Positions 23,309-64,000 of a stretch of DNA of 64,000 bases are shown in pieces. The DNA is taken from the NCBI GenBank assembly GCA_027604705.1, contig JADHYV010000009.1:248001-312000 (forward strand), in the 5' to 3' direction. The stretch comes from Allomyces arbusculus. Taxonomy: Eukaryota > Blastocladiomycota > Blastocladiomycetes > Blastocladiales > Blastocladiaceae. Position numbers and translations under genes: made by a program. The notes under the pieces were generated by a model. The model saw nothing but the letters and a program-made list of their open reading frames with translations. It ran no database searches and had not been told where the DNA came from. Position 1 is the stretch's first letter; each line of letters starts with the position of its first letter.

Positions 23309-23673
23309 GGCGCCGATTGCAGCGAGTGTCGGACGATCGCGCGTGTCGCGCGGAGCGTGTTGATGTCGACGACGATTTGGTATTTGGTGCCGGGGCTGGT
23401 GGTGGGAGCGTCGCGTTGGTGTTTGGCCTGGACTGCAGCGACCGCGCGTCGGAACGCCTGTCAGCAGTGACGTGGCGCAGCGAGAAGAACACTTGGGGTT
23501 TGGCTCGCGCTGGCCGCGTTGGGGCCTTTCAGGGCGGGCGGAGCATTCCATGCACGTCACGCCGCGCCCACCGCTCTCACGCCGCGACACGCGCAACAAA
23601 CACAATCCGCGTTACCGATCAGCGCCGCCATCAGCTGCGGGCCTCCCCGTTCCCTTCCATCCGCCTCCCACAC
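23309..23673. other. Intergenic, 365 bases
   Basis: Promoter region of the Zn2Cys6 factor and 3' flank of the Spt23/Mga2-like gene. No gene is supported. Confidence 0.5.
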
Positions 23674-26600
23674 TCATGACACGTACAACCGCCACGACCG
23701 CCCAAGCTGCCACGCCGTCTCGCCCTCCTCGGCCGCCGCCTCCACCCCTTCCTCGCCCTCACTGGCACCCGCCGCCGCGGCCGTCACCACGACCACCTCA
23801 TCCACCCACCACCGCGTCACCGCCTCAACCACACCCCGCTTTGCCACCGGGGACGCCTCGGCCTCGGCTGCTGCCACTGCGGCTCCCTCCATCTCCGCCA
23901 GCGCCGCAAAATCGAGCCACGCGGGCGCCGCGCCGCCCCAGACACGCGTCGCCGAGTCCCACCCGGCCGACAAGGTCGTTTCGACGGCCGAAGTGGTCAA
24001 GTGCGCAATCACCGCGGCCAGCAAGCTGATGAGCACAAACGCGCGCATGATCCAGACCGTGAGCGGCGCTTGGAAAAAGGTCTCGAGCCGCGCATGGATG
24101 TTCCACCCGGTCAGCGACAGCGGCGAGGCCACGGGGGCCACCGTGGACGTGGGGAGCGGCGGGAGCGTCGCGGCCTTGGCTGAGGAGGACGACGACGACG
24201 ACGACGACGAGGGAGTCGAGACGGGCTTGGTCGGGCGGTCGACGTGCTTGGTGTCGAGGTCGGTCGACTTGGTGGTCTCGATGACCTTGCCGTGCTCGAC
24301 CGACGGATCAACGGCGCAAGCCGCATCGTTATTGACAAGCTCGTTCGATCCGTCGCGCCCCAATGCGACTTGCCCACTAGCGCTCGATGCCGACGAGACA
24401 GCTTGCACACCGCGCTCTACTGCTTGGTCGAGCACCGCCATCCCCTCGTGCCATTGCATCCCTGCCACAGCCTCGCGCAGCGTTCGCCCATCCGCGTCCC
24501 GCACATCCGCGCCCACTCCACCCTCCACACCCACCAACCACGTGAGCAACGCCGGCATCCGGTACTTGACTGCCGCGTGCGCGAGCGCCGCGCGCACTTC
24601 CGCCGCGCCCGGCTCCTCCCCTCTCGCCTGCGCGGTCGTGCCGCCGCTCGTCAGTGCCGCCAGCACCGTCTCCTCGACCGACACGTCGCCGGCGGTCGTC
24701 GCGTGATGCCACGCATTCGCGCAGTGCTGTGCGGCCGCACCGTCAGCAGATGCCGACGAGGAGGAGCCACCAGCCGGCAACGCGCCGCCAAACGCCGAGT
24801 AAGTCGCGACAATTCGCGCGGCGACGGCGTGCGCCGGATCCACCTTGCCGGACAGGTTGTACCCAATCAGCGACAGCGCGAGTTCGAGGACCGACTTGTC
24901 GCCGCCTAGCATAAGGGAAGAAGGGTGGAGAGCGTCAGTCGCGCGCGGTCCGAGGCATCAGTTCAAGAGTAAGCGAAACGAAAGAGATGGAAAGAGATCA
25001 AGGCACTCGCCGGGCTCCAAGTGGCGGAAACATCCAATTGGAGCAAAGCAGGTGCGCGGGCGACTTGGGTGGGAAAGAGCGAGAGAGAGAGAGAAGGGGG
25101 AGGACACGAAATTCTGGCACACCCAAGTCGTCATGTATTTGCGGCCACGAGACGGACGGGAGAGAGGGAGAGACAAGACAGGGGGGCGTGGCGCGGCTCG
25201 CAGCTTGGAAGCAAAAATGTGCATGGTGGGGAGGGTCGTGAGAAGAGCGTGGACGGGTCCGCGGGGCGCGGACCAAAACAAGAACAACAACCAATGGGGT
25301 CTCCAAACGAGACCGAAAATCAGGAAAGGAAGAGGGGGAGACAGCGCCCGCGCGCCGCTCGCGAGCGCGAGCGACAAACATTCAGGGACGCGGGGAGAGG
25401 GGGGGTGAAAATGGAGGGACGTGACGGCCAGCCGTCACCAGTGCGAAGAGAACGCGGTATCGAACCAGGCCATACCGTCTTTGTAGGTGAAGTGGGCCGG
25501 GTCGGGGCCCGACAGCCCGAGGTCGTCTACTTGCTTGATGGTCACGGTCACGGGGCCCGGGTGTGTGCCGGGCGGCACCTTGCACACGAGCGTGTTGACC
25601 GACCAGTACGTCGTCGACAACGCGGGCACGTTGCCAAACTGGACCGTGAGCGACTCTGGCAGACCAATAAAACAAGTGAGTTGTAACGTCGAGACACAAG
25701 AGCAGAAACCATGCGATATGCGCATACCGTTGAACCCGCACCCCAAAATCGTCACATCGATCCCACCATGCAGCGGCCCTTCGGCGGGCACAACGCGATC
25801 GATCCGCGGCAGCTGCGAGAGCGGGCCCGTGAGCGCGAGCCCGGGCGCCGACGATACGGCCGCGGCCATGAGCGCTTCGGCCGACGTGGTCGTGGCGGCC
25901 ATCGGCGGGTCATTCGGCATCGTCATGGCGGGCACCGACAGCGCAACGGGCGCAGACGTGATGCTCGGCAGTCGCATGGGCGGCGGCAGGGTCAGCTTGA
26001 ACGACGTTGCGTTACCCGCGGCTGCTGCAGCGAATGCGTCGCTCGATGACGGGTCGAACACAAACGAGGACGGTGGCGGCAGGGGCGCCGAGGTCAGGCT
26101 CAGGTCCGCAGTCGGCGTCGTCGACGTGGGCAAAATCGGCGCGGGGAACTCGCCGCGCGCGCGTTTGCGCGCCGGCTGCGGGTCGTCCCACTCGAGGTAC
26201 TGCTCGAGACTTAGGACCTCATCGGTGCCAGTGAGTGCCGAAAGACCGTTCGGGAACAGATCGGTCTTGAGGAACTGGCTCGCGGCCGCGCCGGGGCCCG
26301 ATGCGCGACTCGGGTCGTGCGAAATGCCCTCCATCTCGTACGGGCCGAGCTCAGGGCTCGACGCGGACGTGCCCGTCGACGAGGACCGCGACGAGGTGGT
26401 CGATGCCGTGGGCGGAGGCGAGAGGGTCGCGAGCGCGTTCGTTGCCGACGCGGCTTGCAAAACAGGCACGGTCCCGAGACTCAGGCCGACGGTGATCGAC
26501 GGGTCCAAGTACTCGTGCGCGGGCCACGGCGGCAGGGCCATTGCCATACCGTGATCGCTCGGCGACCCGAGCGGAGCAAAAAGCGCCTGCTGGTCAGGAA

Positions 26601-27835
26601 TCGCCGGAAGCGACACAGCGGACTGCGGGGCCGAGAAATCGGTGGTCACCGACTCGGCCAGGGACCGCTTGCGCGCGGGCACCAAAGACGACGATACCGG
26701 CACTCCCGTGGGGAATTCGGTCTCGACGGGCGACGCGGCAGCCGTAGTGGGCACTGACTCGACCGCGGGCGTCGCCGATACCGACGACGCAGCGCTCGTT
26801 GGCACTGCCGCCCCCGTCGTCTGCGTGACCATCGCCTCGGCCGACTGCGCCTGCGCCTGTTGCTGCTGGCGCTTGAGTTTGTTGACCGACTTGTGGTCAT
26901 CGGTAATCAAAATCGGCGCCGACGCGCCGCGCGCAACCACGACCCCGTCCCGATTGCGCAGCTCAAACAAGATCAGGAACCCCGTCTTTTCCCGGTGGTG
27001 CCGACAGTAGCACGGGATCCGCGTCGGCAAGATCACGTCGCCCGACGAGAAATCCATGATCGGCGGCGCGTTGATCAGCAGCACCTTGCGCTCACTCATG
27101 ACAATGTCCGAGGACGGCGGCGCGTCGTTCGAAGACGAGGGCTGGGAGCTGCGGCGGCCACCGCGTGCCGACGTCGCAGCCGTGGCTGCGGGACTCGATG
27201 CGGCTGACCCTGGCGGGCTCGGGAGCGGCGAGGACGTTGCTGCCGCCGACTTCTTGCGCTGAGCGCGCTTGGCTTCGCGCTGCACGCACCCGTGGCACAC
27301 GGTCACGACGCGCTTCGGGTCGGACGCGCAGATAACGGTCCCGTGCAGGGTCAACACGTCCGGCTCGATCGCGGCCGTCGCTGGCGCGGCCCCATTCCCC
27401 GACTCGGTCGACGACGAACTCGGCGACGCGCGCGACGCGCCGTGCCGCCGCCACCGTTCGTTCGCAATCAAAATATCGGGCAACCGGACCTGCTGGTAGC
27501 GCGTCACGAGTTCGCCCGTCGGCGAGACGAGCTGCAGGCACAGCTTGATCTGCGTCTCGACGCGCGACTTGGCGCCGGTGGGAGGAATCCCGAGAATGCG
27601 GATCTGGTACGGCGGGAAGTCGGTTGTGAGCGGCGCGCCCGGCAGGCCGAGGGGCAGCGGGATCCCGGGCATGCCGTGCGGGAAGGGCACGGTCGCGGGC
27701 AAATGGTCGCCGAGCGGGCGCGACACGACCAGGTGCGGGTGAAACCGGTGTGCGAGAGAGGGCGCGCCGACGTTCGCGGTTGTAGGCGTCGGCGGGAGCA
27801 TGGGTGCGGCGGAGCCGGCCGGGAGAAGGTGCGCG

Positions 27836-27870
<35 letters not shown>

Positions 27871-28191
27871 GTGCAGCGCATGCTGCGCTTGTTGCGCTTG
27901 CTGTTGCGTCTGCGCCTGTTGTTGTGGCTGCTGGGGCTGCGGCAGGCCCGACACGTAGCCGAGCCCCATCGACATGAGTTTGGCGGCATCGGCCGGGTGG
28001 AGGACGAGCGCGGGCGGTGCGCCGGGCAACGGCATGAGCGTCGGCGCGACCGTGGCCGATGTCGTGGCCGGAACAGCCGCCGCACTGGTGGCCGGGATCG
28101 CAAAGTAGTCGTTGACGCCGTGCATGGCGACGGCGGGCGGCGACGGCGTCGGCAGTGGCGACTGCAGGTAGAGCACGCGCGGCGTGGCCAT
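23674..28191 (-). CDS. Spt23/Mga2-like membrane-anchored IPT-domain regulator
   Basis: Three exons read leftwards: 28191-25728, 25655-25476, 24905-23674, giving 1291 residues. The first intron is 72 bases and in frame. The second is 570 bases. Domains in order: a Gln/Pro-rich start with a polyQ run, the conserved Spt23/Mga2 block (KSRVETQIKLCLQLV near residue 208; ICASDPKRVVTVCHGC; LPTRIPCYCRHHREKTGF; ILITDDHKSVNKLKR near 429), a long Ser/Thr/Pro linker, an IPT/TIG domain (about 793-881), and KSVLELALSLIGYNLSGKV right after the second junction, as in Mga2. A weak ankyrin-like helix pair follows, then a hydrophobic helix (WIMRAFVLISLLAAVIAHL). In yeast these ER proteins sense lipid packing, are cut loose by the proteasome and activate the OLE1 desaturase. 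I see no LPKY Rsp5-binding motif. Confidence 0.85.
24906..25475 (-). other. Long 570-base intron of the Spt23/Mga2-like gene
   Basis: Donor GTATGG directly after the IPT domain codons and acceptor TTATGCTAG before the GGDKSVLEL codons. Phase 1 on both sides restores the family sequence. The transcribed strand is pyrimidine-rich, with a CT-repeat near 25077-25100. It is several times longer than nearly every other intron in this window. Confidence 0.8.
27836..27872. repeat. CAG/CAA repeat encoding polyglutamine
   Basis: A run of CTG/TTG triplets on the plus strand codes for about 11 consecutive glutamines in the Spt23/Mga2-like protein. Such tracts are length-variable in many fungi. Confidence 0.8.
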
Positions 28192-30886
28192 GAGCGCGGA
28201 AGCGTGCGTCGCGTTGGTCGTGGCGGCCGAGGAGGCGCGCGGCGGGGACGCGTCGGCGGGGATCGTCAGGCTCGAGTAGGGTGCCTATGTATAAACAAAG
28301 GTGTTGGTGAGCGGACGATCGCAAAAGGATCAATCAAGACGGCGGCGGCGACCGCGACGGGCGATGCACATGAGCGCAGCGATAGGTGGGCCTTGGCGCA
28401 CGCGGGCCAGCGCGATTGCCGATACGCGTGAGCGAGTGAGCGCAGGCGGCGACTGACCGACCGACCACCGCCAGCTCGTTGGCCACCCGACCACTCCACC
28501 ACCACCGCGGAAGAACATCGCCGCGCAAACCGTGTTGAGACGGTTGCGCACGGGTCGCGAAGCGCGGGGGTTCGGGCCCGGATCGGTCGGTGGTCGATCA
28601 CGTCATGGGGCAGGCCGCTAGCAGGCCCGTCGGCCAGTGTTCGTGGCGAGTGCGTGCGGCCGCCAAACCACCAGCCCGCGCGGCCATCACCGCTCCATCG
28701 CCACGCCCAGAGCCTGAACCACCAGACGAAAACCGGACGCGCACCTCATCGCAGGGACGGCGCGCTGCCGGGTGCATCGTGGCCATGGCTGCTGCTGCTG
28801 ATGATGCCGCGTCGGAAGCGTGGGCCATAGCGAGAGAAGCTGAAGTTGCGGCGCGAGCGGATCGGATCGTTGGTTGCGTGCGGTTGGCAGGGAGAGGCAG
28901 GACTGGTCGAGCAGGTCGATCGGCGGGACGGGAGCGCGCGCGCTTGCAGGCTTGCAGGGACCGCTGGCGGACGCGACTAGCGGGCGAGCCTGGAGGTTGG
29001 GTGTGGAGCAGGAACAACAGAGAGAGAGAACGCTGGTGGTGCAGAAGGCGTGAGTTTGGCGTGGCCACGGCCTCGACAGCAGGATGGCAGCGGCGTGCGA
29101 CCGACCGCTCTTGCAAAGACGGCTAGAACCCGCGGGAAAAGCACTGCCCGAGAATCGCCATTTCTCGGGGCGGTGCTCATTGGCTGCAATGTGCGCGCAC
29201 GCTGCAGAAACGCTCATGCACGAGGACCCAGTCGCACCGTCGCACAACGACGATGCACCGGCAACACACGTTGGCACGCGTGTGCCTGGGCACGTCGCCA
29301 ACAACCATGTCCACGCCGTTCTGGCGGGTGCGCGTGTGTCGAACACAGGCGGTGGGGAGTTGCGCGGCGAGCAGCGAGCAACTCCACCGCACGGCCGCGG
29401 CTCCGGTGCTCGAGATCGTGGTGGGTGTGACGGAGCATCGGTGTGGTTGGGTTCACGCCGCCGCGGTGCCAAAGACCAAGAGCTCCGGCCGCAAGGAGGT
29501 GGGGAAGCACGGCAAAACGCACCTCAAGATCCGGAGACAGTCGGCACGCCCGGGCGGGTGGAGCCGGGCCGCTGCTGAAGCGGGTGACGTTGGCGGTTTG
29601 GCGAGGAGAGAGCGACGGTGATGTCGGCGACGGCAGGGCCAAACCGACGCGAGCCAACAACGGTCAAGAGTCTTGGTTCGCAGCACGAACACCGACTTGC
29701 GAGCACAGAGGGTTCGCAAGTGGCCTGCGATGCACACGCAGATGAAGACGTGGCACCGTACGAAAATAATTCTGCTCAAGGTCGCGCGCTCCACTCGGCG
29801 TCGGCGGCGGTGGCGAGCAAGGTTCGGTCCGGGGTGGAGTCGACGCACGCGGGCAAATTGGGCGTTTTGCGGTGCCCTTGGCGTGCTGCAACGACGAAAA
29901 GCATAAGAGAAGAGCAAAAGAGGAGAGGGTCAGTTCCCGTCGCCGTCGGACCTTGCACTTGCGTGCACGCAACAACGCCAACTTGGAGAATGCGATCGCA
30001 GGATCGCAAGTCATGAGGTAGCGAACAGTCGACGAACCCGTCCTGCAACGGCGTTGTTGGCTGTGCGACTGAGGCGACCGAGAAGCGTGGCCGCGGCCGT
30101 GTGTGGTGAGAGACGTACGAAACCCGAGAGTCTGGCACGAGCCGACCGGGTGATGAGGACGACGAACGGAGACGACGAAGCGTCCGCGGCGAGGACGGCG
30201 ACGTGTTGCACCCTGCAGGGGAGCCGGTTCGACCTCGCCGACGAATCTGGGTCCTGGGTCCTCGGCGAGGTCGGCGTCGCCAAGGGCCCCACTTCCCCAC
30301 GCCTCGCCCCGCGCCACGGGTCCTCTTGCGAAATCCCTTGTCGCGCGCGCCGCCCTGGGAAGGGACAACGACTACGTGGCATTCCGCCGCTCACTTCGCT
30401 CCCATTTCCCTGGCGTGCGCGGTTGGCGGGGGAACCCTTGTCCATGGCGCCGCCGACGCCGCCGCGCGCTCACGCTTCGTCGCGGTCACGTTACCGTGAT
30501 TCGGACTGCACGCGCACATCCATCGCGCGCGTGGTTCGGTCATCGGTTCGTGGCCGCGCGTCGCGCGCGACTGGAAATGAAGTGGAAATGAGGGCCGAAC
30601 CACCGACACTCGCGCGCACATGGCCCGCAACCAAACAGGACGCGGCGTCAGTACACCGTCCCGACGCGCGACCGGCATCAAAAATCGGTGGACAAGGAGG
30701 GGAAGATCACAACGTGCGCAAAGAAGAATTATGTATTCGGAGAAAAAGTCACCCAAGCCAGCAGGCGAGTCCAATTGCGGTTGGTGGTCATGGCCCTGGT
30801 CGTAGTGGTGGCTGACCGGCCACGATCATCCACCAAACGGTCAAAGTCCCCCACGTCCCTCTCCACCCCGGCAGTCCTGCTCCTCG
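28192..30886. other. 2.7 kb stretch without a supported gene
   Basis: This lies upstream of the Spt23/Mga2-like start and downstream of the cyclase stop. Open frames of up to 260 codons exist on both strands (for example 28687-29472 minus, 30054-30815 plus), but they overlap, are Arg/Ser/Pro-rich and show no recognisable domain. They look like chance frames in GC-rich DNA. It could be a long promoter, a 5' UTR, or hold a non-coding RNA. Confidence 0.5.
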
Positions 30887-33800
30887 TCACGGGCTCGGCC
30901 CCTGCACGTCCACCACGGGAACCTGCACCGGCTGTTGCGGCGGCGTGGACTGCTCGAGCGCGACCTGGCTCAACGACGACTGCCCGACCCCACGCTTGGC
31001 AAACGCCGAGATCGGCGACGGCGACAACGTGTCGCGCGACGGCACGACCGGATCAAACCCGTCCTTGGACACGAGCCAGTACGTCTTCATGGTCCCGCGA
31101 CCGGGCAACACCATTTCGCCGCGGGCCTCAAAGTGGAACCCGCCCACTTGCTCGAGCCCCTCGTATGTGGCCTCGGAGATTTGCACCTTCATGGGAAGAC
31201 TCGTGCTCTCCATCTTGCTCGCGATCGTCGACGTGTCGCCAAAGAGCGTGTACCGCGGCATCTTGCGCCCGACGACACCGGCGACGATCGGGCCCGTGTC
31301 TGACGTAGGAAAGTGGTCAGCCGGTTGAAACACAAGCACATAACGCAACGAACGCGGCTTCAGGTGGGGAAGGGTCACGTACGCATGCCAATGCGCATCT
31401 TGAGCACCACGTCGGGCCGGTGCCGGATGCGGATCGTGCTGATGGCCTTGAGCAAGTGCAATGCGAGCTTGGCCATTTCCGAGCAGTGACGATCTCCGTT
31501 GGGTCGCGGCACGCCCGAGCCAATCACGTAGCAATCTGGGAGCGAGCAAATTGAGCCAGGTCAGCTGCGCGAACGTGTAGATGAGTGCCGATACCAACGA
31601 CGCGCAACGAACCTCCAATAGTCTCAATCTTGTGCACGTCGTACTGCGCAAGAATGTCATCAAAGCACGTGTAGAGGTCGTTGAGCATGTCGACAATGTC
31701 GAGCGGCTCTGACTGCGACGCGAGCGACGTGAACCCGACAATGTCCGTGTAGAGAATCGTGCACTGGTCAAACGCCGTGGGTGCAGCCACTTCCCCACGC
31801 ATCAGCTGCTCGGCAATCGACGCGGGCAGAATCTCCTGGATCAGCGACCGCGACTTGGTGCGCTCCTTGCCGAGCTGTGCAATCAGCGACTCCATTTCGG
31901 CCTGCTTGCGCGCCTGCTCGGCGCGCGCCGCTTCTTCAATCGCGTTCTGCTCCGTCAAGTCACGCACAATACCCGTGAACAGATGGAACTCTTCTTCCTT
32001 GACCTCCGACACGGACAAGTGGATCGGGAACAGCGACCCGTCCTTTTTGCGGCCCTTGGCCGTGCGCCCAATGCCAATCACCTTCTTGACGCCCGTCGTC
32101 AAATAATTGAGCAGGAATTGGTCGTGCTGCACGGCAATGTGGTCGGGCGTGAGCATCTTGATGTTCTTGCCGAGCACCTCGTCGGCCGAGTACCCAAACA
32201 TCTTTTCGGCGGCCGAGTTGAAGCGCAGAATCGACCCGACCGGGTCGATGTTGATGATGGCATCGAGCACGGCATCGAGCACCGAGTTGAGCGTCCGGCG
32301 CTCCGTGAGCATCTTGCGCTCTGTGGCGCGAATCGACGCGTCCATTTGGTACTCGCGCTGCTGCATCGACATTGTTTCCATAATGACCGATTCGTGGCTC
32401 TTGCGCATGCTGCGCATTTCCGTGTCGTGCGCGAGATCCAAGTCGTCGAGCCGCTTCTGAATGTCCTCTTCGAGCGCACGCAGCTCATCGGCCTGCTCCT
32501 TGCGCAGCCGGCGCAACTCGTCCTTTTGCCGGGCCACGGCCATCTTGAGCAGCTCCATGAGCTTGGTCAGCTGCTCCTGCAACCGCGACTGGTCGTCCGA
32601 CAGCGCCCTGGCAATCGCCAGCTCGGCCTCGCGCTGCTCGGCCATTTCCTCGCTCGTGGCTGCGTTTGCTGACGACGACATTTGCTCGCGTGTGGCGCCG
32701 TCCACGACGCTACCGACCGACATGATCGACAAGCTGCGGCTCTGCGACCCCGGCAACCCAAGCGCCGACCCGCCTCTCGACATTAACGACGGCCCGCCCT
32801 GCATGCTGCCGTAGACGTTGACGGAGCCATCGTCATCGCCGAGCATGAGCACTTCGCGCCACTTTTTGAGCCGCAACGCCGCGCGCAGCCGCTGCGACCG
32901 CATCGCCATCTTGATCTGCGTCTTGTGCTGCGCCTTGAGCTTCTTGGTATCGGCCGTGTGCTGCACGGCGACTTGCGCAAGCTTGATCTTCTCGCGCGCG
33001 TCCTCGATGCGCTCATTCTCGGCCGCGTACTCGACCTTCTGCTGCGACTCGACCTCGTCGAGCCGGCGCTTATGCGCGGCGCGCAAGTGCGCGACCTCCT
33101 CGAGCGCCTTGGCCTCGGCATCAAACCGTTCCTTGCGCTGCTTGAGTTCATGCTGCTGCACTTCGCGCAACTGGTCGGCAATATGCTTGTCGAGCGTGCG
33201 CTGGTGGTTGATCCGGTAGGCGAAATCCTTCATGATCTCGGCGCGCAAATCCTCGCGCAATCCGCGCGTCTCAATCTCGAGCAAGGCCTTTTGGTCGCGG
33301 ATCTTGCGCTCTTGCGCAAATTCGAGCTGCTGCCGCTGCCGGACGTGCCGAGCCTCCATGTGCGCCATGAGCGACTCGAACCGCTGCCGGTGCTGGGCCA
33401 GCATTTCGCGCACTTCGCGCGCCATGTGCTTGCCCGTATCCTGCTGGCGAATCTTCACGTCGCGCGCCTTGGCTTCCTTGGACATTTGCTTTTGCAGTTT
33501 CTTAGTGTGCTTGCGCACCTTGCGTTCAGACAGCATCGACTCGTACGCGTCGTCGCTGCGCGCGAGCTCGTAGGCTTGCCGCTGCAAGAGTTGATTCATT
33601 TCGATCTCGTCTTGCCGCGCAAAAAAGGCCTCCTCTTCCTGTAGGACCGGGGGGGGGTTGAGATAGTCAGTGGCGATGATCACGGGCACAAGGGGACGCA
33701 CGCGACCGTCGACAGAAACCAAAGCTGACCTTGCGGAACACCTCGTTCTCGGCCTGCCGAATGTTCTGCTCGACTTTTTCCATGTCTACACGCGCAACCA

Positions 33801-50884: not shown

Positions 50885-53800
50885 ATGTCAACAATGCCGA
50901 CCACTCGACCGCCAACGCGCCGGTCCATATCGGCCACGTCGGTCACCTCGATCGCGTCCGGTTTGACCTCGACCAACGACCGACCCGTCCTCTCAGGCCG
51001 CGTCGCCGAAATTTCCGAGGACGAGGCCGAGCAAACGCGGAAATGGACGCGGATTGCACTCGCGGCTGCGGCCGTCGTAGTGCTCGCCGGGATTGGTCGG
51101 TATCACGCACGCCCATCACGGTTCCGATCACGTTATTGACCCCCGACCGATCCTTGCCCAACAGGGTGTGCCGTGGGTCTCTTCTTTGTCCTGCACAGCG
51201 TCGAAATGGACAAGTACCACAAGAACTGGGCGTCGCTGTGTGAGGAGAACGTGCGCCTGCTCGATGTCGCGTTCAATCGCCGGTTGTCGTCGTCGGTACG
51301 CATCGCTGGCCGTGTCACCGACGACGAGTCCTTTTTTGCTAATGATTAGATGGTACTTTGTTTGACTAGCTGTTGAACGTTGCGGCCTACGTGCACGCGG
51401 TACCCGAAGTGTCGCAAGGCGCGCAACCACGTCCTCGGCCCGTTGCGAATGTGTTTGACCCGGCTGACGCTATGCTCCACGGTAGACAATCTCATGATCT
51501 TCACGCAGCTCTCGTCGTTTGACCCCACGCTCCTCTACAGTATCTCCAATGCGCCCGTCCTCTCGTACGACGAGATTCCGGCATTTGAAGCGCGGTACGG
51601 CGCGACTTTGTGGCCGCGTCCGCTCCCGCCAAAGGAAGGGGTCCTCGTACACGGCCGCGCCGTCGTATCGCCTGTGCTATTCATTTACCCGCCGTCCGTG
51701 ATCCGATCAATTTTGGGGTTCAACCAGATGAGCAACGCGCCACGGCGCGACGCGATCCTGGCCCTGCTGCAGTCGCCAACAATGCGCATGTCGATTTCGG
51801 ATCCGATCGGGGTGATCCCGACCAACGCGCGCGGGTTTATTGTGTGGGTGAAGGCCATGAACCGCACGACGGTCGACGCGGACACGCCGTTTGCTCAGTG
51901 GATTGCCGCTGCGACGATCGAAGTCTCGACGCTGCTCAAATCGTCGCTCGGGTCCCGCAGTGCTGAGCGTGGTGTCTACGTAGATGTGATCCACCCGACG
52001 GGCGAGTTGGTCTTCACGACCTTGCCCACTAACATGTCCAAGCGCGGTCTCGACGCGCACAATTACACGATCCCGGTGCTCAATCAGCACTGGACCGCCG
52101 TCTGCTGGGCGTCGCCGCACTTCCACGGGTCCATGGTCACGGCGTGGCCGATCGTCGTGGGCGTAATCCTGCTCGTGTTTTTCCTGCTCGCCGCGGAATT
52201 CGCGCGCCGCGCAATCTTGCGGTACATAACCGCCAAGCACTTGCTGCGCCGGTATCAGATCCAGGACCAGTTGTTGTCAACGCTGTCGCGGTACTCAAAG
52301 GCCATCATCGAAGCCCTCCCCGACTGTCTGCTGGTCGTGAACGCGCACGGCCGGATTCTGGGGATCAACGAGGCCGTGCTCGACATGACGGGGTACTCGG
52401 TCGCTGAACTCGAGGCGATGCCCATCGACCAGCTCGTGTTCCCAAAACTGCTCGATTTGGGGATTCACGCGTCGCCCATCTCGACCGCCGGCGACACGCT
52501 CGTGCTAGACTCGACGCCGACACCACACACGCCAGCGGCGGCACCGCACGCCGTCGATCCGGCCAGTCGTGCCGGATTCGTCCCGCCCACACCGCCCGGT
52601 CGCGCGACCGACCGCACGTCGGCCATGCCGCCACCGCCACCTTCGTCGCGCAGCCAGCGCGTGCACATCCCCGATTCGGCAGGTACGACGACGGCCGGGA
52701 CGACGATGGCCGTTCCTGACGGCGCTGACGACGACGCGGCAAGTCTCCTGGAAGTCGGCTTTTTCGAGGGCACCGTGCGGCGCAAAGACGGCACGTTCTT
52801 CCCGGCGTCCATTTCCGTGAACGCCGCGGGCGATGCGATGCGCGACGGCGACCCGCGCGCGATTCTCGACCACGCTGTGGAAGTCGGGATGACGCCGCTC
52901 AGTCGGTCGCGCAATGGTGGCGGGACCGTGCGCGTTTTTGATACGGCGATCGCGCAGGTCGTGCTCTTCCACGACATTTCCGACCAAATGGACATGCAGC
53001 GCGCAGCGGCCGCGGCCAAGCACGACGAGCGTGAGGCGACAAGGAGTAAAGAGTCGCTGTTGCGGTTCTTGGCGCGGTCGCTGTTTCCGCAGACGCTCAC
53101 GGTGCACTCTGCACTGCGCGCGGTTCAGCGGTACCTGCGCGATTTGGGGATGGGGGTCGGGTTGGCTGGCAGTGGCGATGGCGGTGGGGTAGTATCGGAG
53201 ACGCGTGCCACGTCGCTCGTGTCGAGCGCGTCGGTGTTAGAGGAGATCGACGCGGCCGAGGCCACGGCAATGCATATGGTGCTGCTCATGGAAGACCTCG
53301 CGCTGTTTATCGGCACGCCGTTCCCGGCGCGGTACGCCGAGCAGACGCCCGGAACGCCGCTGCGCGCGATCATGCAGGACGGACTGGATGCGCGTAAGGA
53401 CGTGACGGGCGCCAAGCGCATGGCGATCACCAAGAGCGTCGACCCAGCAAATACCGTGATTGGTGGGGAATTGACCCAGTTGCGGCTTCTGGTCGCGAAA
53501 ATGCTGTTTCTCGGATCGTCGGTCGCGCTGCCGGACTCGACGTGGGTCGTGCAGTACACGATCACAGACAAGGGGCGGGAGTCGGCGGGCCGTTCGCAAG
53601 CGCCTGCGTCACCGGCGCCGTCCGTGTCCAGCGAGTCGTCGTCATCGGCGTCGTCGTGCTCGATTGCACCCGTGGCAGGTGCATCGCAGGCCCGGTGCTT
53701 GCAGCGTCGCGATCCCGCGATCGCGCTAGTCTCCCCAACGATGCCCATGCCGGCGCCGCCGGGGCCGGAACGCATGGTTCCGCTCTCGATTAATTTGCGG

Positions 53801-54168
53801 CAGCGGCTGTCGGCCATGGACAAGGCGCTGATTCTCGACGATCTCGAGCTGAGCTTGAAGCACGGGTCGAGCGGGTCCGAGTTTGGCAATTTGGCGCTGA
53901 CATATCTCGGGCTGGCCAGATTTGTCAAGCGGATTGGCGGGATGCTTGGGCGGTCCGGGGATCCGGTCACGGGCAGTTGTACGCTCGACGTCGAGGTACC
54001 CGGTTTTGCGGGTGGTGGAGAAGCGCGTGCGGTCGTAATCCTGACCCGGATGGAACGATCGAGTAGGTGCCGTTGTCGCGAATCCACGCGTGGGCGACGT
54101 TTCCAACCTCAAGTCGGCCGGATGACGAGGCTAGAGCGGGCCGGAGACCGCGGGAGCAGCGGCCGTAG
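50885..54168 (+). CDS. Receptor copy A: CHASE-like sensor, PAS, pseudo-histidine-kinase
   Basis: Five exons: 50885-51095, 51165-51295, 51370-51418, 51486-53995, 54067-54168, giving 1000 residues. The third intron starts GC instead of GT (51419). The order is: Ser/Thr-rich cytosolic start, TM1 (about 54-80), an outer domain of about 265 residues (LSYDEIPAFEARYGATLWPRPLP, GVIPTNARGFIVWVKAMNRT) that resembles CHASE sensing domains, TM2 (about 346-368), PAS/PAC (AIIEALPDCLLVVNAHGRIL to QVVLFHDISDQ, about 394-635), then a kinase-core-like region. Where a histidine kinase has SHEIRTPL, this has FLARSLFPQTL with no His. The N box and G boxes are also unrecognisable. The last short exon ends EVPLSRIHAWATFPT, found again in copy B. 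No receiver domain follows. Signal and output are unknown. Confidence 0.78.
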
Positions 54169-54383
54169 TAGCAACAGCAAAAGAGGGGTCCTGCGGAGGC
54201 AGGGAGTAGATCAAAAAGAGAATGATTTTACTAATTGTTTGTGGACACACACGTCTGGAGGACACCCGAGGTGTGCTGGTGTGCACGGCGACCTCAGACC
54301 ACATGCAAAACCACCGATTGCACCGAGCCTTCAATCCGACCCTCATTTGTCCCATGAGACGCGCGCGTCGTGCCAAAGCACCC

Positions 54384-54391
54384 GCACTCGA
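54384..54391 (+). promoter_or_regulatory. Shared GCACTCGA box before receptor copy B
   Basis: GCACTCGA lies 71 bases before the copy B start codon. The same eight bases occur 66 and 72 bases before the starts of copies C and D, within partly similar surroundings. It could be a binding site or just duplicated flank. Confidence 0.35.
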
Positions 54392-54454
54392 ATTGGGAGC
54401 GGCAATTACCCAACATCATCCCCAACACTGCCGTCGGTCGCCGACACCGCCGCG

Positions 54455-57400
54455 ATGCAGACCGCGACGCTTCGGCGGTCCCGCCGCCATGCTGTGCCGC
54501 GATATTTCTCATCGACCACAAGGAGCAGCACCAGCAGCGGCAATGACCACAGGAGGAATGCCGCACCGCCATGGAGCACAGACGACGAGGACCGGCAACT
54601 TCGCCGCGGGCAGTGGATCGCGGTAGCTGCCGCGGTCGCAGTGGCGTGTGTTGGCGTCGGTGCGCATCAGCGCGTCCATCACAAGTTGGTGGGGAGGGCA
54701 TCGTGCTCGTCTGACCCTGTCGGCGGCTTGCTCCCCTCCAGGATGCGCGCTCGCCCTGTACTTCCCGCTCCACGCGGTCGAAATGGACCGATTCCGCGGC
54801 GAGTGGAAGTCGGCGTGCGAGCAGAACGTGCGCTTGCTCGACGTTGCGTTCAACCGGCAGCTGGCCGGCATGGTGCGTCATCGCTTTATCCTCACACTCG
54901 AACATGCGCATGCGCGTTGGTCTTGCCGCTCTGATCGTGAAGCTCACCATCTCTTTCAATCGTAAATCAGGTCCTGAATGCGGCCGCGTACGCGTCGTCC
55001 GTGCCGATTATCAGCCAAGGTGTGTCGTGCGCGGCCAGTTGGAAAAAGAACCGATCTGCCGTCGCCATGCTGATCGGTGTCGCCGTTTGCCAGAGAACCT
55101 TGTTACGTACGCCAACCACTCGTCCATGGACCAGAAGGTCACGTATTCCGTATCGAACTCGCCCATCCTGTCCTACGACCAACTTGACGAGTTCGAGTCG
55201 TTTTACGGACGCACGGTTTGGCCCAAGCCGCTGCCACTCGAGGACGATGTGCTCGTCAACGGCCAACCGATTGCGGCACCGATGCTGTATCTGTGCGGAT
55301 TCCGTCTTTACTGCGCCAAACGTTGGAAATAGAGCTCCTCTACTCGTTCACGGCTAACTTTTATCGTCGAACGTTGACAGTTTTCCCACCTCATTGACCC
55401 CAACCGTTGGCGGCTTCAACCAGTTTTCGGATCCGCGACGGCGCTCGGCTCTCGTCGCCCTACTGCAGTCGCCATCGCAACGCATTACTATCTCTGACGG
55501 ACCCATCGCGATCATCCCCACTAATGCGCGTGGTTTCCAAGTCTGGGTCAAAGTCATGAACCGCACGGCCAGCAAGAACACGCCATTCACGTCGTGGTTG
55601 TCGGGCGCAACCGTCGAGATCAGGACCCTGCTCGGCGCTACGCTCGCCAACCGCACGTCCGACCGTGGGGTGTTTGTCGAAGTCATTCACCCGGCGGGCG
55701 ACCTGATCTATTCGACTGTGCCTGATAACAATACGACGAGCACGGCTCTGTACTCGTCGCAACTGCTCACGATCCCAGTGCTCAACCAGCAATGGACGTG
55801 CAAGTGCTGGTCCGCGACGCGGTTACGCGGCCGGTTCGTGACGCCGTGGCCTGCGGTTGTCGCGGTCATCACGGCCATCGTCTTCTTGGCCGCGGCCGAG
55901 GTGGCGCGTCGTGGTGTTCTACGGCACTATTCTGCCAAGCGCCTTCTGCAGCAGTACCAAACGCAGAATCGGCTGCTCTCGATGCTCTCACGCTACTCTA
56001 AAGCCATTATCGAGGCGCTCCCGGATTGCCTGCTGGTCGTGAACGCGCGCGGCCGCATCTTGGGCATCAACAAGGCCGTGCTCGACGTGACTGGCTATAC
56101 GGCCGCTGAGCTTGAGTCGACGCCCGTCACGGAAATCATCTTCCCGATGATCCTCGACTTGGGGTTCCGCGAACCACCGCTCTCGAACGATGAGGATGAC
56201 CCAAATCCGGCTGCGCCCCTTTGTGCACGCGCGACATTTCCTCGCTCTGTGCGATCCAGGGCCACTCAACCGGCACTACCGAGGATTGGGAATGCTGCCG
56301 ACCCGCTGCTCGAGAACGGCGTTTTTGAGGGCACCGTGCGTCGCAGCGACGGGTCCACGCTTCTCGCGTCGATCGCCATCAACGGCACGGGAGCCGAGGA
56401 CGAGGAACGCCGTGCGATGCTTGACCACGCGATTGCTGCGGGCGTGACCCCGCTCGTGTCGCACCAGCGGCAGCTGCTCGACGACGAGATTGCCCAAGTC
56501 GTGCTGTTCCACGACATTTCCGACCAGATCCAGACACAGCGCATGGCCGGGGCGGCGCGGTTCGATGAGCGCGAGGAGACGCAGACCAAGAACTCGCTGC
56601 TGCGGTTCCTCGCGCAGGCGATGCTGCCGCTGACACTCGGCATGCACAACGCTCTGGCGCGTATCCAGGTTTGGATGCGCGGCTCTGCGTCTGGGCTGGT
56701 CGAATTTGCGCCAGTTGTGTCCATGCACGACCGGCACGTCTCGGCGGTATCAGCGAACGACGTGCCGCCAGGAATTCATGCGCGCATGTCGAGCCGGACG
56801 GCGGCCGAGGACATTGACGCGGCCGTGGCCACGGCGCAGCATATGGTCGTGCTCATGGAGGACTTGGCGTTGCTGATTGGCACGCCGCTTTACGCAGGGC
56901 GCCAGGAAAAGGAGCTGGTGGAGGGTGTGCTGCTGTACGAGCTGCAAGCCGACGCGCTACGCGCGCAAGACGAGCGAATCGCGGCCAAGCGACTACGTGT
57001 CATGGCTGCCGTCCATCCGCCGCTGGTCGTCGTCGGTGGTCACCTCTCGACGCTACGCATTCTCATGGCCAAAATGCTCTACCTCGGGTCGTCGATCGCG
57101 CTGCCTGACGCGGCATGGGATATCACGTACGCGGTCACGAAAGCGAACCGCGGTGCGGCCAGCTCTTCATCGCCCACGAACTCGATAGCATCGACTCGTT
57201 CGAGCCGTAGCAGCGTGTCAATCACGGCGCCGACGCGACGCGAGCGCCCGTGCCGGCGGCGAGATGCGTCAACCATGCCGCCCCACTCGGAATCTACTGC
57301 ACCTGTCATGCCGCTCTCGGTTCACTTGCGACAAACGCTCTCGGCCATGGACCCATCGGTGATCCTCGACGACCTTGAGTTGAGTTTGCAGCATGGGTCG

Positions 57401-57742
57401 CGCGGCAGTGAGTTTGGGAGTTTGGCGCTCACGTTTGTTGGGCTCGCGACGTTTGTCAAGCGAATTGGTGGCGTCGCGGAGAGGTCGGCCGATCCAATCA
57501 CGGGCGCGTACACGCTGGACTTCGAGGTATGTAGGTTCGCGTGTCAGGGAGAAGCGCGACGCGACCGCACCCATGTTTGCGCTCGCGGTTGTGGTCATAC
57601 CTCGCGACAACGAGGATCCTCGCTCATTTGAGTTTGAACGGATCCATAGGTGCCTCTGCCGCGGCTTCAAGCGTGGGCCTCGTTTCCAACCGCTCGGTTA
57701 CGAGACGAGATGAGTGCAGGTCGGAGACCGCAAGAGACCTAG
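54455..57742 (+). CDS. Receptor copy B: CHASE-like sensor, PAS, pseudo-histidine-kinase
   Basis: Six exons: 54455-54659, 54742-54872, 54971-55019, 55094-55292, 55381-57526, 57650-57742, giving 940 residues. Exons two and three have exactly the same lengths as in copy A (131 and 49). The fourth intron is absent from copy A. TM1 contains WIAVAAAVAVACVGVGCALA. The outer domain has LSYDQLDEFESFYGRTVWPK and IIPTNARGFQVWVKVMNRT. TM2 is AVVAVITAIVFLAAAEVARR. PAS and PAC are KAIIEALPDCLLVVNARGRI and QVVLFHDISDQIQTQRM. The expected phospho-histidine segment reads SLLRFLAQAMLPLTL, without His. Later blocks LRILMAKMLYLGSSIALPD and GSLALTFVGLATFVKRIGG sit where an HATPase N box and G2 box would be, but lack their key residues. 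The last exon encodes VPLPRLQAWASFPT. Confidence 0.8.
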
Positions 57743-58146
57743 CCGCTGCAGCTGGTAGCAGAGTCTGGGATGAAGAGAATCGGTGTGTGAACGACCTTGA
57801 AGTTGACCATGTTTAGTCGGCGTTGCTTACCAGGTTGATGGCCGGCAGCGCAAACGCCCAAGACCCACCGCCGCTCCCCATTGTCGCAAGCCCAGAGTTC
57901 CTGGCTTCTCTAGGGCCTAGAACAATTTTTCCAGGTCTTCTACAATCCATGGAAGCGACCAGAAGCGATGAGAGCGACGTGCCCTTGATTACCGCTCAGC
58001 GTTCCCGTTCGCCGTTGCCCTACGCTTACCGATGACCCTCGATCCAACCCATGGTCGCTCGCGGCCACACCGAAGTACCTGCACTCGAATCGGGATCTGT
58101 GGACTTCAACCTCGCCGCTGACAACATCAGCGCCGAGTCCGCTGTG
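57743..58146. other. Spacer between receptor copies B and C, 404 bases
   Basis: Contains the shared GCACTCGA box at 58081 and no gene. Confidence 0.5.
58081..58088 (+). promoter_or_regulatory. Shared GCACTCGA box before receptor copy C
   Basis: The same eight bases as before copies B and D, 66 bases before the original start codon of the now broken copy C. Flanking bases (CCTGCACTCGAATCGGGA) are close to those of copy B. Confidence 0.35.
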
Positions 58147-61089
58147 ATGCCGACCGCGGCTCTCCGCCGGCCACGCCGCCACGCTGACCACAATCTGCGT
58201 CGAACACGAGCAGTAGCGCGCGCAGTGCCAGCGGCGAGACGACCGGGCCGGGAACGATACAACAGCGCCATGGAACATTTACGATGAGGACCGGCAGTTT
58301 TGCCGAAGACAGCGGCTTGCGCTGGCCGTGGCAGCGGCGTTGGCGTTCGTGCGCATCAGTGCACCCATCACGCATGGGTGGTGGGACTCATCTGGTGCTC
58401 TGCCCGCAAGATGCGCGCTCGCCCTGTATTTCCCGCTTCACGCGGTCGAAATGGGTCGGTTCCGTGACGAGTGGAAGTCGGCGTGCGAGCAGAACGTGCG
58501 CTTGCTCGACGTTGCGTTCAACCAGCCGTTTGCAGGAATGGTATGGCCCGCGCAGGACTCATTACACACGGAGCGCCTTTGTCCGAATTCAGTTTCTTAC
58601 ACGGCCAATAGGTCCTGAACACGGCCGCCGACGTGTGGTTGGTGCCGATCATCAACGAAGGTGCAAGTCGAGGTGCATGTCAAGGGCGTGGCCCACGACG
58701 ATATTTTCTTGTGCCGTTCTTATCAGAGAACCTGATCACATACGCCGATCGCTCGTCCATGGACAAGAAGATTACATTTTCCATCTCCAACACGCACCTT
58801 CGTGTCCTACGACCAGCTCGACGTCTTCGAGTCGTCCTATGGCTGCAAGGTTTTTCCGAAGCCGCTCCCACACGAGGAGGACGAACTCGTAAATGGCCGA
58901 CCGATTATTGCACCGATCCTCTTAATGTACGGACCATCTTTTGCTCTCGTCGAGCGCTGACTTTGCTTACCTCTTTCGTCGACTGACAAACAGCTTTCGC
59001 GCTTGACCATGTGTATAGATTTCCGACGTCGATGATCCTGACCGTTGGCGGCTTCAACCATCTCTCTGAGTTGCCGCGACGTTCCGCGCTTCTCTCCCTC
59101 TTGCGCACGCCGGCCCAACAAATTGCCATTTCTGACGGGCCTGTCACAATTATCCTGACCAACGCGCGCGGGTTTCTCGTTTGGTCAAGGCCATGAACCA
59201 TGCCATCAACAAAAACACGCCCTTTGAAACTTGGCTTTTGGCTGCCACGGTCGAGATTGGCATGATGCTGCACGCGACGATCACGAACCGCACGACCGAG
59301 CGGGACGTCTTTATCGAGGTCGTTCACCCGACGGGCGAAATGATTGACTCGACTCTGCTCATGAACGACACGACAAGCGCGGCGCTACACTCGTCGCGGG
59401 TATTCACTATCCCCGTGCTCACGCAGCAGTAGACCTGCAAGTGCTGGGCCGCTTCGCAATTACGCGACCGATTCGAGACGCAATGGCCCTCGGTTGTCGA
59501 CCCCGTCACGGCCTTGGTCTTCCTGCTCACGGCCGAGGTGGCGCGCCGCGGCGTGCTGCGGCATTATACCTCAAGGCGGCTCCTCCTGCAGTACCAAACG
59601 CAGAACCGACTCCTCTCGACGCTGTCACGCTTCTCCAAGGCCATCATCGGGGCACTGCACGACTGCCTTCTCGTCGTCAATGCGCACGGCCGCATCCTCG
59701 GCATTAATAAGGCCGTGCTCGACGCGACGGGTTCTTGGTCATGGAGCTCGAAACCAATCCCGCCACCAAGTTTGTGTTCCCGATGATCCTCGACTCGCGG
59801 TTTCGCACACCGTCGTTGTTTGCCGACAACACGAAACCATATTCTCCACCCGGTCGCGCCGCATTGGTGCCAGTTTTTGCGCCGCTACCAATTGGCTGCC
59901 CTGTGCAGCCACTGTCGAGTTCCCGGCGCCGTTGGCGAGCGAGTCGTCCACGCGCAGCACCACCAAGCCTCTGCTCGTGGCGGGTGTCTTTGAAGGCACG
60001 GTGCGGCGGAGCGACGGTTCAACGCTCCCTGCGTCGACTGGCGTCAAGACGACCACGGACATTGAGGACCGCCGCGCCATGCTCGATCAAGCCTTTTCGG
60101 CGGATGTCACGCCGCTGATCTCGCACCAACCCCGGCTTCTCGACGACGAAATTGCGCAGATCGTGCTTTTCCACGACATTTCTGACCAGATCCAGGCGCA
60201 GCGTATGGCCGGTGCCGCGCGGTTCGATGAGCGCGAAGCTACGATTGTGGGACCCGCGCTCCCGCCGGTTATTCATGCCCGCATGTCGAGCCGAACGGCC
60301 GCTGAGGACATTGATGCGGCTGCGGCCATGGCACAGCACATGGTTGTGCTCGTGGAGGACCTCGCGCTGCTGATCGGCAAGCCCGTCGCTTCCCACGCCG
60401 GCAGTCGGCGTGCCGCTGCACGTGCTGCAGGCTGACGCGATTCACGCGCAGGAAGAGCGGGTCGTTGCCAAGCAGATGCGCGTAACGGCCGCCGTCGACC
60501 CTCCGACGGCCATCATGGGTGGAACGGGCCTTGCGACACTGCGCGTGCTCATGCCCAAGATGCTCTTCCTCGATTGCCCTGCTCGACACCGAGTGGGCTG
60601 TCAAGTCCACGATCACGCACACCGATCGTGTAGTACCGTCACGTTCCCCTTCACTGGGGTCCGTGGCCTCGATGGAGACCCACAGGAGTGACTCGGGAGT
60701 GACGCGGGGGCCAAGGCGTCGGCGGCGACGCGCAAAGCCAAATCCACCGCCGCCCGACCCGAACCATGCCACGTTGGCGTCGGTGCCGCTCTCGATCCAC
60801 CTGCGGCAGTCGCTCACGGCCGTGAACCTGTCCGGGGCCATTGACGACCTCGAGTTGAGCTTGCAGTACGGGTGAGGTGGCAGCGTTTTCGGCAATTTGA
60901 AGCTCACGTACGTCGGGCTCGCCACGTCTGTCAAGCGGATCGGCGGTGTGCTGAGCGCACGATGGATCCCGTGTCGGGCCTGCGCACACTCAACGTGGAG
61001 GTGCGTGCGCTGGATCGACGCTTTCGTCTCGTTGCCCGGCTGACCCGGTCGACACCGCGTAGGTGCCGCTAACGCAGCTTGGCATATGA
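58147..61089 (+). pseudogene. Receptor copy C, decayed
   Basis: All parts of the family can be followed in order: start MPTAALRRPRRH, the GRFRDEWKSACEQNVRLLDV block near 58450, the VLNTAA exon near 58613, the SSMDKKITFSISN block near 58757, TVGGFNHLSELPRRS near 59040, TM2 near 59500, PAS near 59640, PAC near 60160, and a last exon matching VPL at 61063-61089. The frame is broken several times: within the first exon, in the outer domain near 58795 and again near 59185, by a TAG near 59430 just before TM2, in the PAS region near 59735, and near 60400 and 60580. The region equivalent to the histidine-box segment is deleted near 60240. The second-exon acceptor has also lost its consensus. A host gene duplicate that no longer codes for a full protein. 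Confidence 0.85.
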
Positions 61090-61616
61090 ATTGAATTTCC
61101 GGCGCCGGACGACGGCGGCGGCCATGGAATTAGCTTAGGAGCAGGAGAAGTACGTGCGGCGCGCCTGCAGCTGTGCGTAGAGGCACGCGGAGTACTGATC
61201 AGCTGTGACTTTGGAGATCGTTGACCATCATTCGTCTATAAAGCGGTGGCCCGCCCTGGTGTTTGATGTGATTTGCTTGATGACCGACCCAGCTTGGCTG
61301 CGTGACAACTGACCGATCCGCGGGTCTGGACCGACCAGTTTTCCCAGAAATTTCACGTTCTGATCGACCACGCGCGCGTAATTGCCGTCCTGTCACGACT
61401 GGTCAGTCCCTTCCAGGTCCCTTCATGGTCCCTTCCGGGCCTCTACCGTCTTCCACCAGTTTGCCAGCGACGAGCGCCACGACCGAACGCACCTGCAGCC
61501 AGCTGCAGCCCCCGTCCATGGCGGCGCGCGACCCCAAAGTTGCTGCACTCGACTCACGTCACGCAAAATTCCCCGTAACTGCAGTCACCGCTACCCGCGC
61601 GGCCACCGCCGACGCG
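61090..61616. other. Spacer between receptor copies C and D, 527 bases
   Basis: Holds the shared GCACTCGA box at 61545. No gene is seen. Confidence 0.5.
61545..61552 (+). promoter_or_regulatory. Shared GCACTCGA box before receptor copy D
   Basis: The same box, 72 bases before the copy D start codon. Confidence 0.35.
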
Positions 61617-64000
61617 ATGCCGACTGCAACACTCCGGCGGTCGCGCCGCCCTCGCCGCGCATCAGGAACCAGCAGCACCAGCGAAACCAACGACGATGCG
61701 TCCGCCCCGGCCGACCGTGATTCCGCGCCATGGTCAAGCGACGAAGAGGATCAGCAGCGACGGCTCTGGCAATGGATCGCGCTTGCTGCCGCGGTGACCG
61801 TTGTGGGCGTGGGCATTGGTGAGTACCATCAGCGAGCCCATCACGCAGAAGTGCATGGGCACATGTCATTGCCCGGCTCACGTCATGTTCACCCTCTAGG
61901 ATGCGCGCTCGCCCTGTATTTCCCGCTGCACGCCGCCGAGACGGGCCGGTTCCGCGACGAGTTCAAGTCGGCGTGCGAGCAGAACGTGCGGTTGCTTGAC
62001 GTCGCGTTCAACCGGGAGCTGGCTGGAACGGTGCGTCTCTTCACGTCACCGCCGCACGGCGGCGCAGGGCCATCCCCCCCCCCCCCCCCCAATCAAACGT
62101 CGCCAAATTGATTACTTTTGTATGAATGTGAAGATCCTGAACGCGGCAGCGTACGTGTCGTCGGTACCGACCGTCAACGAAGGTAAATTTCTCGCATTAG
62201 GGTTGAACCAACGTGAGCCGCAAACCGTGAGTACCACATGCTGACTTGTGCTTCTTATTTCCAGATGCGCTCGTCATGTACGCAAACAGCTCGTCGCTCG
62301 ACAAAAACATCACGTTCTCGCTCTCGAACTCGCCCATCTTGTCGTACGACCAGCTCGAGCAATTCGAGTCGTTCTACGGACGCACCGTCTGGCCCAAGCC
62401 GCTTCCGCCCGAAGACACCGTCATGGTCAACGGTCGACCTATTCTTTCGCCGGTTCTCTTTATGTCGGGTCGACCTCTCGTAGTCGCTGATCTGACCGCG
62501 CTATGACTGATCAGCTCTCGCCTGTCTCGTCCATAGTTTTCCGCCGACTCTGACCGCGACTGTTGGCGGCTTCAACCAGCTCACCGACCTGCGCCGGCGC
62601 TCGGCCCTTCTCACCCTGTTTCGCACGGAATCCCAACGCGTCGCCATCTCGGACGGACCCATCACGATCATCCCGACAAACGTGCGCGGCTTTATCGTTT
62701 GGGTGAAGGCGATGAACCGCACAAAGGCCGATGCTGACACGCCCTTCACGTCGTGGCTGTCGGCGGCAACAATCGAGATCACGACGTTGCTCGGTGCGAC
62801 GCTTTCCAATCCTACGAAGAGAGATGGTGTGTTCGTCGAAATCCTCCACCCGACGGGCGAAACGATCTACTCGACTTTGCCCAACAACGACACGGACCTG
62901 CACTCGTCGCGGCTGCTCACGATCCCGGTGCTCCACCAGCAATGGACGTGCAAGTGCTGGGCCGCTTCGCGGTTCCGCGATCGATTCGTGACGCAATGGC
63001 CCTCAGTTGTCGGCGCCGTCACAGTCTTGGTCTTCCTGCTCGCGGCCGAGGTGGCGCGCCGCGGCGTGCTGCGGCACTTTTCGGACAAGCGCATCTTCCA
63101 GCAATACCAAACGCAGAACCGACTCCTCTCGACGCTGTCGCGCTACTCCAAGGCGATCATCGAGGCGCTACCAGACTGCCTGCTCGTCGTGAACGAGCGC
63201 GGCCGCATCCTCGGCATCAACAAGGCGGTGCTCGACGTGACGGGTTACTCGGTCTTGGAGCTCGAGACGACGCCTATCACCGAAATTGTGCTCCCGATGG
63301 TCCTCGACTTGCGGTTCCGCACGCCGTCGCTCGCTGCTGCCTCGGAATACGCACTCACCAACCCGCTCGCGCGGACTCCCGCGGCTCCGCGTGCATTCCG
63401 GCCCACTACAGAGCCCTCTCAGACCACGACACCGTCGTTCCACTCGGCTGCGGGCAACGCGTCCGGGCGACGCATTGTGATCGCCGACCCGCCGACGATC
63501 CGCGCATCGCGCGACACGGCGTCCTCCAACGAGTCGGCCAATCTGCTCGACGTTGGGTTCTTTGAAGGCACTGTGCGGCGTGCCGACGGGACCACGTTTC
63601 TCGCGTCGATTGCCGTCAACGCGACGACGGGCATCGAAGACCGCCGGGCGATGCTCGAGCACGCGATTGCCGCGGGAGTCACGCCGTTGATTTCGCTTCA
63701 GCAACGGCTGCTCGACGACGAAATTGCACAAGTCGTGCTGTTCCACGATATCTCTGATCAGATTCAGGCGCAGCGCATGGCCGGTGCCGCCCGCAGCGAC
63801 GAGCGCGAGGCGACCAAGAGCAAGAATTCGTTGTTGCGGTTCCTCGCGAAGGCGCTGCTGCCCCAGACGCTTGGGATCTACGATGCGCTCGTGGACATTC
63901 AGCAACGGATGCGCGGCGTTCCGTTTGGGATCGACCCGCCGATGCGGGCCCGCCGAGCGTCGAGTGGATCCACGGCCAGCTCTGCGCCGTCAATCCTGCT
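61617..64000 (+). CDS. Receptor copy D, partial at the window end
   Basis: Exons 61617-61818, 61900-62030, 62134-62182, 62265-62463 and 62537 to beyond 64000. Exons two to four have the same lengths as in copy B (131, 49, 199). The frame is open to the window edge, about 680 residues so far. TM1 contains WIALAAAVTVVGVGIGCALA. The outer domain has LSYDQLEQFESFYGRTVWPK and TIIPTNVRGFIVWVKAMNRT. TM2 is GAVTVLVFLLAAEVARRGVL. PAS is KAIIEALPDCLLVVNERGRI with GYSVLELETTPITEI, and PAC is QVVLFHDISDQIQAQRM. The histidine-box position reads SLLRFLAKALLPQTL, again without His. The second intron carries a run of 17 C. The C-terminal pseudo-kinase part lies outside the window. Confidence 0.8.
62074..62090. 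repeat. Poly-C run of 17 in an intron of receptor copy D
   Basis: A homopolymer C tract in the second intron of copy D, upstream of a weak GAAG acceptor. Such a run is prone to length change and to sequencing error. Confidence 0.8.

Follow-up and report, generated by a model that had tools for sequence, protein, structure and literature searches.

The final 13 kb of a 64,000-nucleotide stretch of the Allomyces arbusculus genome (the window; contig JADHYV010000009.1 of assembly GCA_027604705.1, positions 248,001 to 312,000) hold a tandem array of four related genes, whose products are built, in order, from a tail, a transmembrane (TM) segment, an outer CHASE domain, a second TM segment, a PAS region with a variable insert, and a degenerate core. 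We regard as evenly poised the proposal that these proteins are membrane receptors descended from sensor histidine kinases (HKs) of the CHASE type, in which catalysis has been lost but sensor, PAS relay, and a scaffold resembling DHp/CA survive. Purifying selection acts on the three copies that remain open (A, B, and D) and maintains most of the protein; the apparent descent of the core from an HK core is supported but weakly so, and signaling, by analogy with known systems, would probably proceed by pairing with active HK partners.

In-register repeats with a spacing of ~3.5 to 3.7 kb run across the whole of 50885-64000 (all coordinates are positions in the window; the array and every copy lie on the + strand). 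Searches of the whole window by tblastn with the models of copies A, B, and D (E ≤ 0.01) recovered four collinear copies, A to D, and no further match elsewhere in the 64 kb, which bears out the four head-to-tail related genes proposed over 13 kb by an earlier reading of the letters (the sequence-only reading). Gene models were built by comparison among the copies, and exon limits are common to A, B, and D. Copy A (50885-54168) is open throughout and encodes 1000 residues in 5 exons (50885-51095, 51165-51295, 51370-51418, 51486-53995, and 54067-54168); its first ATG, at 50885, is also the start given by the sequence-only reading, and its third intron is GC-AG in the model, an alternative donor being possible. 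Copy B (54455-57742), likewise open throughout, encodes 940 residues in 6 exons (54455-54659, 54742-54872, 54971-55019, 55094-55292, 55381-57526, and 57650-57742), with every intron GT-AG. Copy D (61617-64000) has five exons (61617-61818, 61900-62030, 62134-62182, 62265-62463, and 62537 to beyond 63998) separated by GT-AG introns only, and it stays open for 681 residues up to the window edge, which cuts it inside the core. Copy C (58220 to approximately 61003), pieced together from tblastn matches, is a pseudogene with at least five frame changes and two in-frame stops, and the region matching the first DHp-like helix is missing. The stop of A lies 287 bases from the start of B, and ~480 bases separate the stop of B from the first recognizable part of C. 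B and D are closer to each other (68% identity over 647 codons) than to A (52% and 50%, respectively), so that A looks like the oldest branch. Pattern searches for relatives of the array in prokaryotic and viral contigs returned 37 and 47 matches, none of which was confirmed by tblastn.

Hydropathy places two hydrophobic segments around the outer CHASE region in each of A, B, and D; in copy A they correspond to residues 62 to 80 (51068-51193, across intron 1, with coordinates derived by hand from the exon table) and residues 347 to 365 (52133-52189). Between them, the CHASE model PF03924 matches residues 128 to 286 of copy A (51409-51952, across an intron) at 32.6 bits (E of 8.8e-8), above the curated Pfam cutoff of 25, and the equivalent position in B and D at 19.1 bits each (E of 0.0012), under that cutoff. 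The sequence-only reading described the outer domain as resembling CHASE but divergent from it; the CHASE assignment holds, and in copy A the match passes the Pfam cutoff, which makes the domain more than CHASE-like. The predicted two-TM sensor with PAS is also recovered, as the PAS model PF00989 exceeds its own cutoff in A, B, and D. In the alignment of these three copies, the PAS region of A spans 52298-52990, as two halves (52298-52462, which PF00989 matches at 28.6 bits, and 52745-52990) around an insert (52463-52744). This insert is of low complexity and varies in both length and sequence among A, B, and D, with identities of 24 to 38%. A sequence search of the PDB with query A1 (E up to 10) returned 11 sequences, the best at an E of 0.012, including PAS domains, antibody chains, and the Tll1590 protein, with neither a CHASE domain nor an HK core among the matches. 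Weak Pfam matches to GHMP_kinases_C, Trp_oprn_chp, AnfO_nitrog, and SR-25 were taken as chance.

Ratios of nonsynonymous to synonymous substitution rates (dN/dS, by NG86) for whole genes are 0.34 for A-B, 0.36 for A-D, and 0.27 for B-D, these values being rough, as dS is mostly 0.7 to 1.4 and is higher or saturated in some regions. By region, the A-B ratio is 0.30 in CHASE, 0.15 in the first PAS half, and 0.15 (bootstrap interval, 0.06 to 0.27) in the last part of the core. These ratios, together with the exon structure common to A, B, and D, argue against an unlikely explanation under which all copies are decaying, nonfunctional relics of an ancestral CHASE kinase whose frames stay open by virtue of a GC-rich composition. 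That explanation does draw on the broken state of copy C, on the GC donor in the modeled third intron of A, on a first part of the core that is loosely constrained, and on the occurrence of long open frames by chance: the frame of the main exon of A (51377-54934) remains open through the last intron and the intergenic stretch into copy B, from which it follows that long chance frames exist in the GC-rich DNA here. Clear decay is seen in copy C only, with its frame changes and stops, and the term used in the sequence-only reading does not fit the other three copies.

The kinase part appears, from the residues at conserved HK positions, to have lost its active site. We tabulated these residues in an alignment (A6) containing 38 of 80 collected HK loci, in which copy C is mostly absent and copy D contributes no more than the first helix. 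In the column of the phospho-His, occupied by His in 38/38 HKs, A has Arg, B has Gln, and D has Lys, and the Glu that follows it is replaced by Ser, Ala, and Ala, respectively, in a register that is uncertain for the first helix, as this segment gives no profile alignment signal. The Arg, Thr, and Pro of the H box fall in an alignment gap, and a His occurs further along the first helix in A and B, with Tyr at that place in D. Both N-box Asn columns (Asn in 38/38 HKs) hold Lys and Ser in A and B, the G2 box GGTGLG reads GNLALT in A and GSLALT in B, and two columns that are Phe in 38/38 HKs are replaced by Arg and Leu. Pfam searches of the three open models (E up to 10), in which HMMER filters drop most weak matches, matched no HisKA, HATPase, or REC domain. 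For REC, the Pfam negative extends to the whole open frame of A that runs into B, D ending earlier, and with the last exon terminating near the final CA-like strand and short gaps before the next copies, no room for a REC domain is seen. The sequence-only reading had named a known HK class with intact catalytic boxes as the outcome contrary to its proposal; the boxes are instead largely replaced in the alignment, and Pfam returns none of the three domains.

It is very unlikely that the array encodes active kinases for which our models have missed exons or the catalytic part has been misannotated. Models resting on comparison leave some scope for such errors, and CHASE kinases with HK domains are known from such fungi, as described in PMC5285503. 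Against this, the cores of A and B each lie in one open exon and show largely identical replacements at conserved HK columns, and the intervals after A and B are as short as noted above, with no REC matched by Pfam in the entire A frame. The fungal hybrid HKs are defined by a phospho-His, ATP boxes, and REC, none of which is recovered intact here, and the array thus lies outside that group by definition.

Homology of the core to an HK core is likely, on modest statistics together with collinearity and domain order. The DHp/CA-like core of copy A was located by hhalign and the residue table at 52991-53995, with its end in the last exon (54067-54168) and a low-complexity loop at ~53600-53806, and the main-exon part of that of copy B was located by hhalign and the residue table at 56489-57526; the last exon is similar in A and B and ends soon after the final CA-like strand. 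We compared the joined core of A and B, minus two loops, and its separate segments with a profile of 7 Escherichia coli HKs and with a profile of 86 HKs (these 7 and 79 of the 80 collected loci), taking significance from column shuffles. With the 86-HK profile, the alignment of the joined core is collinear along 175 columns and runs through the final CA strand, at a score reached by 2/200 shuffles, and the second and third segments align separately at matching places (3/200 and 5/200 shuffles, respectively). The second segment also stands out with the 7-HK profile (2/100 shuffles). Whole-protein HK models of NCBIfam give weak matches (E up to 1), namely AtoS at 0.014, which lies on the PAS region of copy A, PnpS at 0.086, and ArcB at 0.12, the last two in one member each.

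Several results weigh against an HK-derived core that has been retained after losing catalysis. HMMER with either the 7-HK or the 86-HK profile finds no significant match in the core. With the 7-HK profile, 74/100 shuffles do as well as the first segment, which amounts to no signal, and neither the third segment (18/100) nor the joined core (15/100) reaches significance; with the 86-HK profile, the first segment aligns over 8 columns only and was not shuffled. An AlphaFold2 model of the copy B core built from window rows only is poor (mean predicted local distance difference test [pLDDT] score of 44.2) and was kept out of the fold search. The copy A core modeled with 38 HK rows fares better (pLDDT of 62.2, with a confident long helix pair and a low-confidence CA part), and of the 167 matches that Foldseek returned to it (E up to 10), 2 have an E of 0.001 or lower; the best 50 of the 167 are all histidine kinases or phytochromes (query TM-scores of 0.19 to 0.38), headed by YF1 (2.6e-4), GacS (8.7e-4), and RetS (1.2e-3), a likeness that is not independent evidence because of the 38 HK rows in the input alignment. 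The G1 box is not wholly replaced, its D/G/G reading D/G/E in A, with the Asp and first Gly kept, and K/N/G in B, with the last Gly kept. Finally, evolution has been faster in the first part of the core, with a dN/dS of 0.56 (0.36 to 0.80) for A-B and of 0.63 for A-D, where an interval of 0.32 to 1.24 means that no constraint is demonstrated for that pair.

The HMMER negatives, the silent first helix segment, the nonsignificant 7-HK alignments, and the uninformative window-only fold model speak for a rival explanation, in which the CHASE and PAS parts of these receptors are followed by a helical output domain, unrelated or new, without HK ancestry, its likeness to DHp/CA owing to chance and to expectations raised by domain order. 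We find this explanation doubtful, given the 175-column collinear alignment to the 86-HK profile and the fact that CHASE and PAS domains often precede HK cores. As to the DHp plus HATPase layout claimed in the sequence-only reading, hhalign and the replaced boxes speak for a pseudo-kinase core, whereas Pfam and HMMER lend it no support and the structure model is not independent; it remains the weakest part of the observation, supported by the profile-profile alignment and that model.

The sensor itself bears on whether the array proteins act as plant-type cytokinin receptors, which we hold to be highly unlikely. The motif GVVLTFPVY of AHK4 corresponds to GFIVWVKAM in A and D and to GFQVWVKVM in B, and the ligand-contact Thr of AHK4, which we take to be the residue numbered T301 in PMC5285503, aligns to Trp in all three copies in a by-eye motif register guided by bacterial CHASE sequences (GFLMYYPVY, GFLIYYPIF, and GMVIYYPVG, from three loci in two of 5 genomes searched). 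An hhalign comparison of the CHASE region with AHK4 did not rise above shuffles (score of 13.4; shuffle mean of 13.2). An apparent Trp in place of this Thr speaks against a plain cytokinin receptor, as does the absence of the kinase boxes needed for a phosphorelay. The results thus give no positive evidence for a cytokinin role, and none for the mating-signal role suggested in the sequence-only reading. The idea has its footing in AHK4, whose CHASE domain binds cytokinin, and in the proposal of PMC5285503 that fungal CHASE kinases respond to cytokinin; the same source describes Thr or Ser at the pocket position in almost all fungal CHASE HKs.

If the array does encode kinase-dead receptors, ligand bound by the outer CHASE domain would shift the second TM segment together with the PAS region, and the dead bundle, DHp-like in form, would then probably pair with an active HK and alter its activity, in the style of RetS acting on GacS, with no phosphorylation by the array protein. 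More tentatively, the tandem copies may be selection-kept, kinase-dead CHASE receptors with a decoy or trans-regulatory role, duplicated and able to signal only through active CHASE HKs. Were this true, a duplicated, selectively maintained, and kinase-dead branch of fungal proteins resembling cytokinin receptors would show that receptors of this sort can be retained without phosphotransfer, and it would caution against assuming that all CHASE proteins of fungi are kinases that sense cytokinin.

The surroundings of the array suit a fungus. Scanning a further 20 open frames of the window with Pfam identified several genes, including ones for a symplekin N-terminal domain and a phosphomethylpyrimidine kinase, and a NIF-domain protein, presumably TIM50-like, adjoins the array. 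On the − strand are a 1077-residue open frame with a homeodomain (14249-17482; PF00046, 7.1e-13), two adjoining regulatory genes (20207-28284) encoding a Zn2Cys6/Fungal_trans factor and an Spt23/Mga2-type protein that carries a TIG domain, and a gene in which a PAS domain is joined by the beginning of a class III guanylate cyclase domain (31524-33785; PF00211, 1.8e-17). The product of the last has a long, helical-looking N-terminal stretch and no outstanding TM segment; it is apparently soluble and is encoded 17 kb from the array.

Catalytically dead HK cores are known mainly from bacteria, plant ethylene receptors, and phytochromes, and a literature search for dead or degenerate histidine kinases returned no paper on such fungal proteins, its matches including a maize receptor paper and PMC5285503 (gene names only). 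The claim that no fungal family with this layout had been described is too strong: hybrid HKs with CHASE between two TM helices are reported from fungi of early-diverging lineages, Catenaria and Allomyces among them, with CaHHK3-5, AMAG_01137, AMAG_18430, and RiHHK7 as some of the named examples (PMC5285503). The array shares this arrangement and a host group, Blastocladiomycota being among the hosts, and is best read as a kinase-dead branch of the Catenaria/Allomyces CHASE hybrid HKs. Those kinases were compiled with HisKA, HATPase_c, and REC queries, whereas by Pfam the array lacks all three, so that what may be new is solely the kinase-dead, REC-less form; the comparison follows the text description of those genes, some of which may resemble the array copies. 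Like AHK4 (CHASE structure 3t4j), the array uses CHASE as its outer sensor, and unlike AHK4, it has an apparent Trp for the contact Thr, a PAS region, a degenerate kinase core, and no REC domain. RetS of Pseudomonas aeruginosa, in which a degenerate HATPase domain accompanies inhibition of GacS autophosphorylation through the core (PMC5992135), offers a parallel as a membrane sensor with a degenerate HATPase region, provided that the array core is HK derived, and RetS chains occur among the Foldseek matches of the biased core model; RetS is bacterial, has a different sensor domain, and carries REC domains. The plant ethylene receptors ERS1, ERS2, EIN4, and ETR2, cited in PMC5285503 as lacking HK functional domains, combine an ethylene-binding TM domain with GAF where the array has CHASE and PAS, and they resemble the array as hormone-type receptors minus parts of the kinase machinery.

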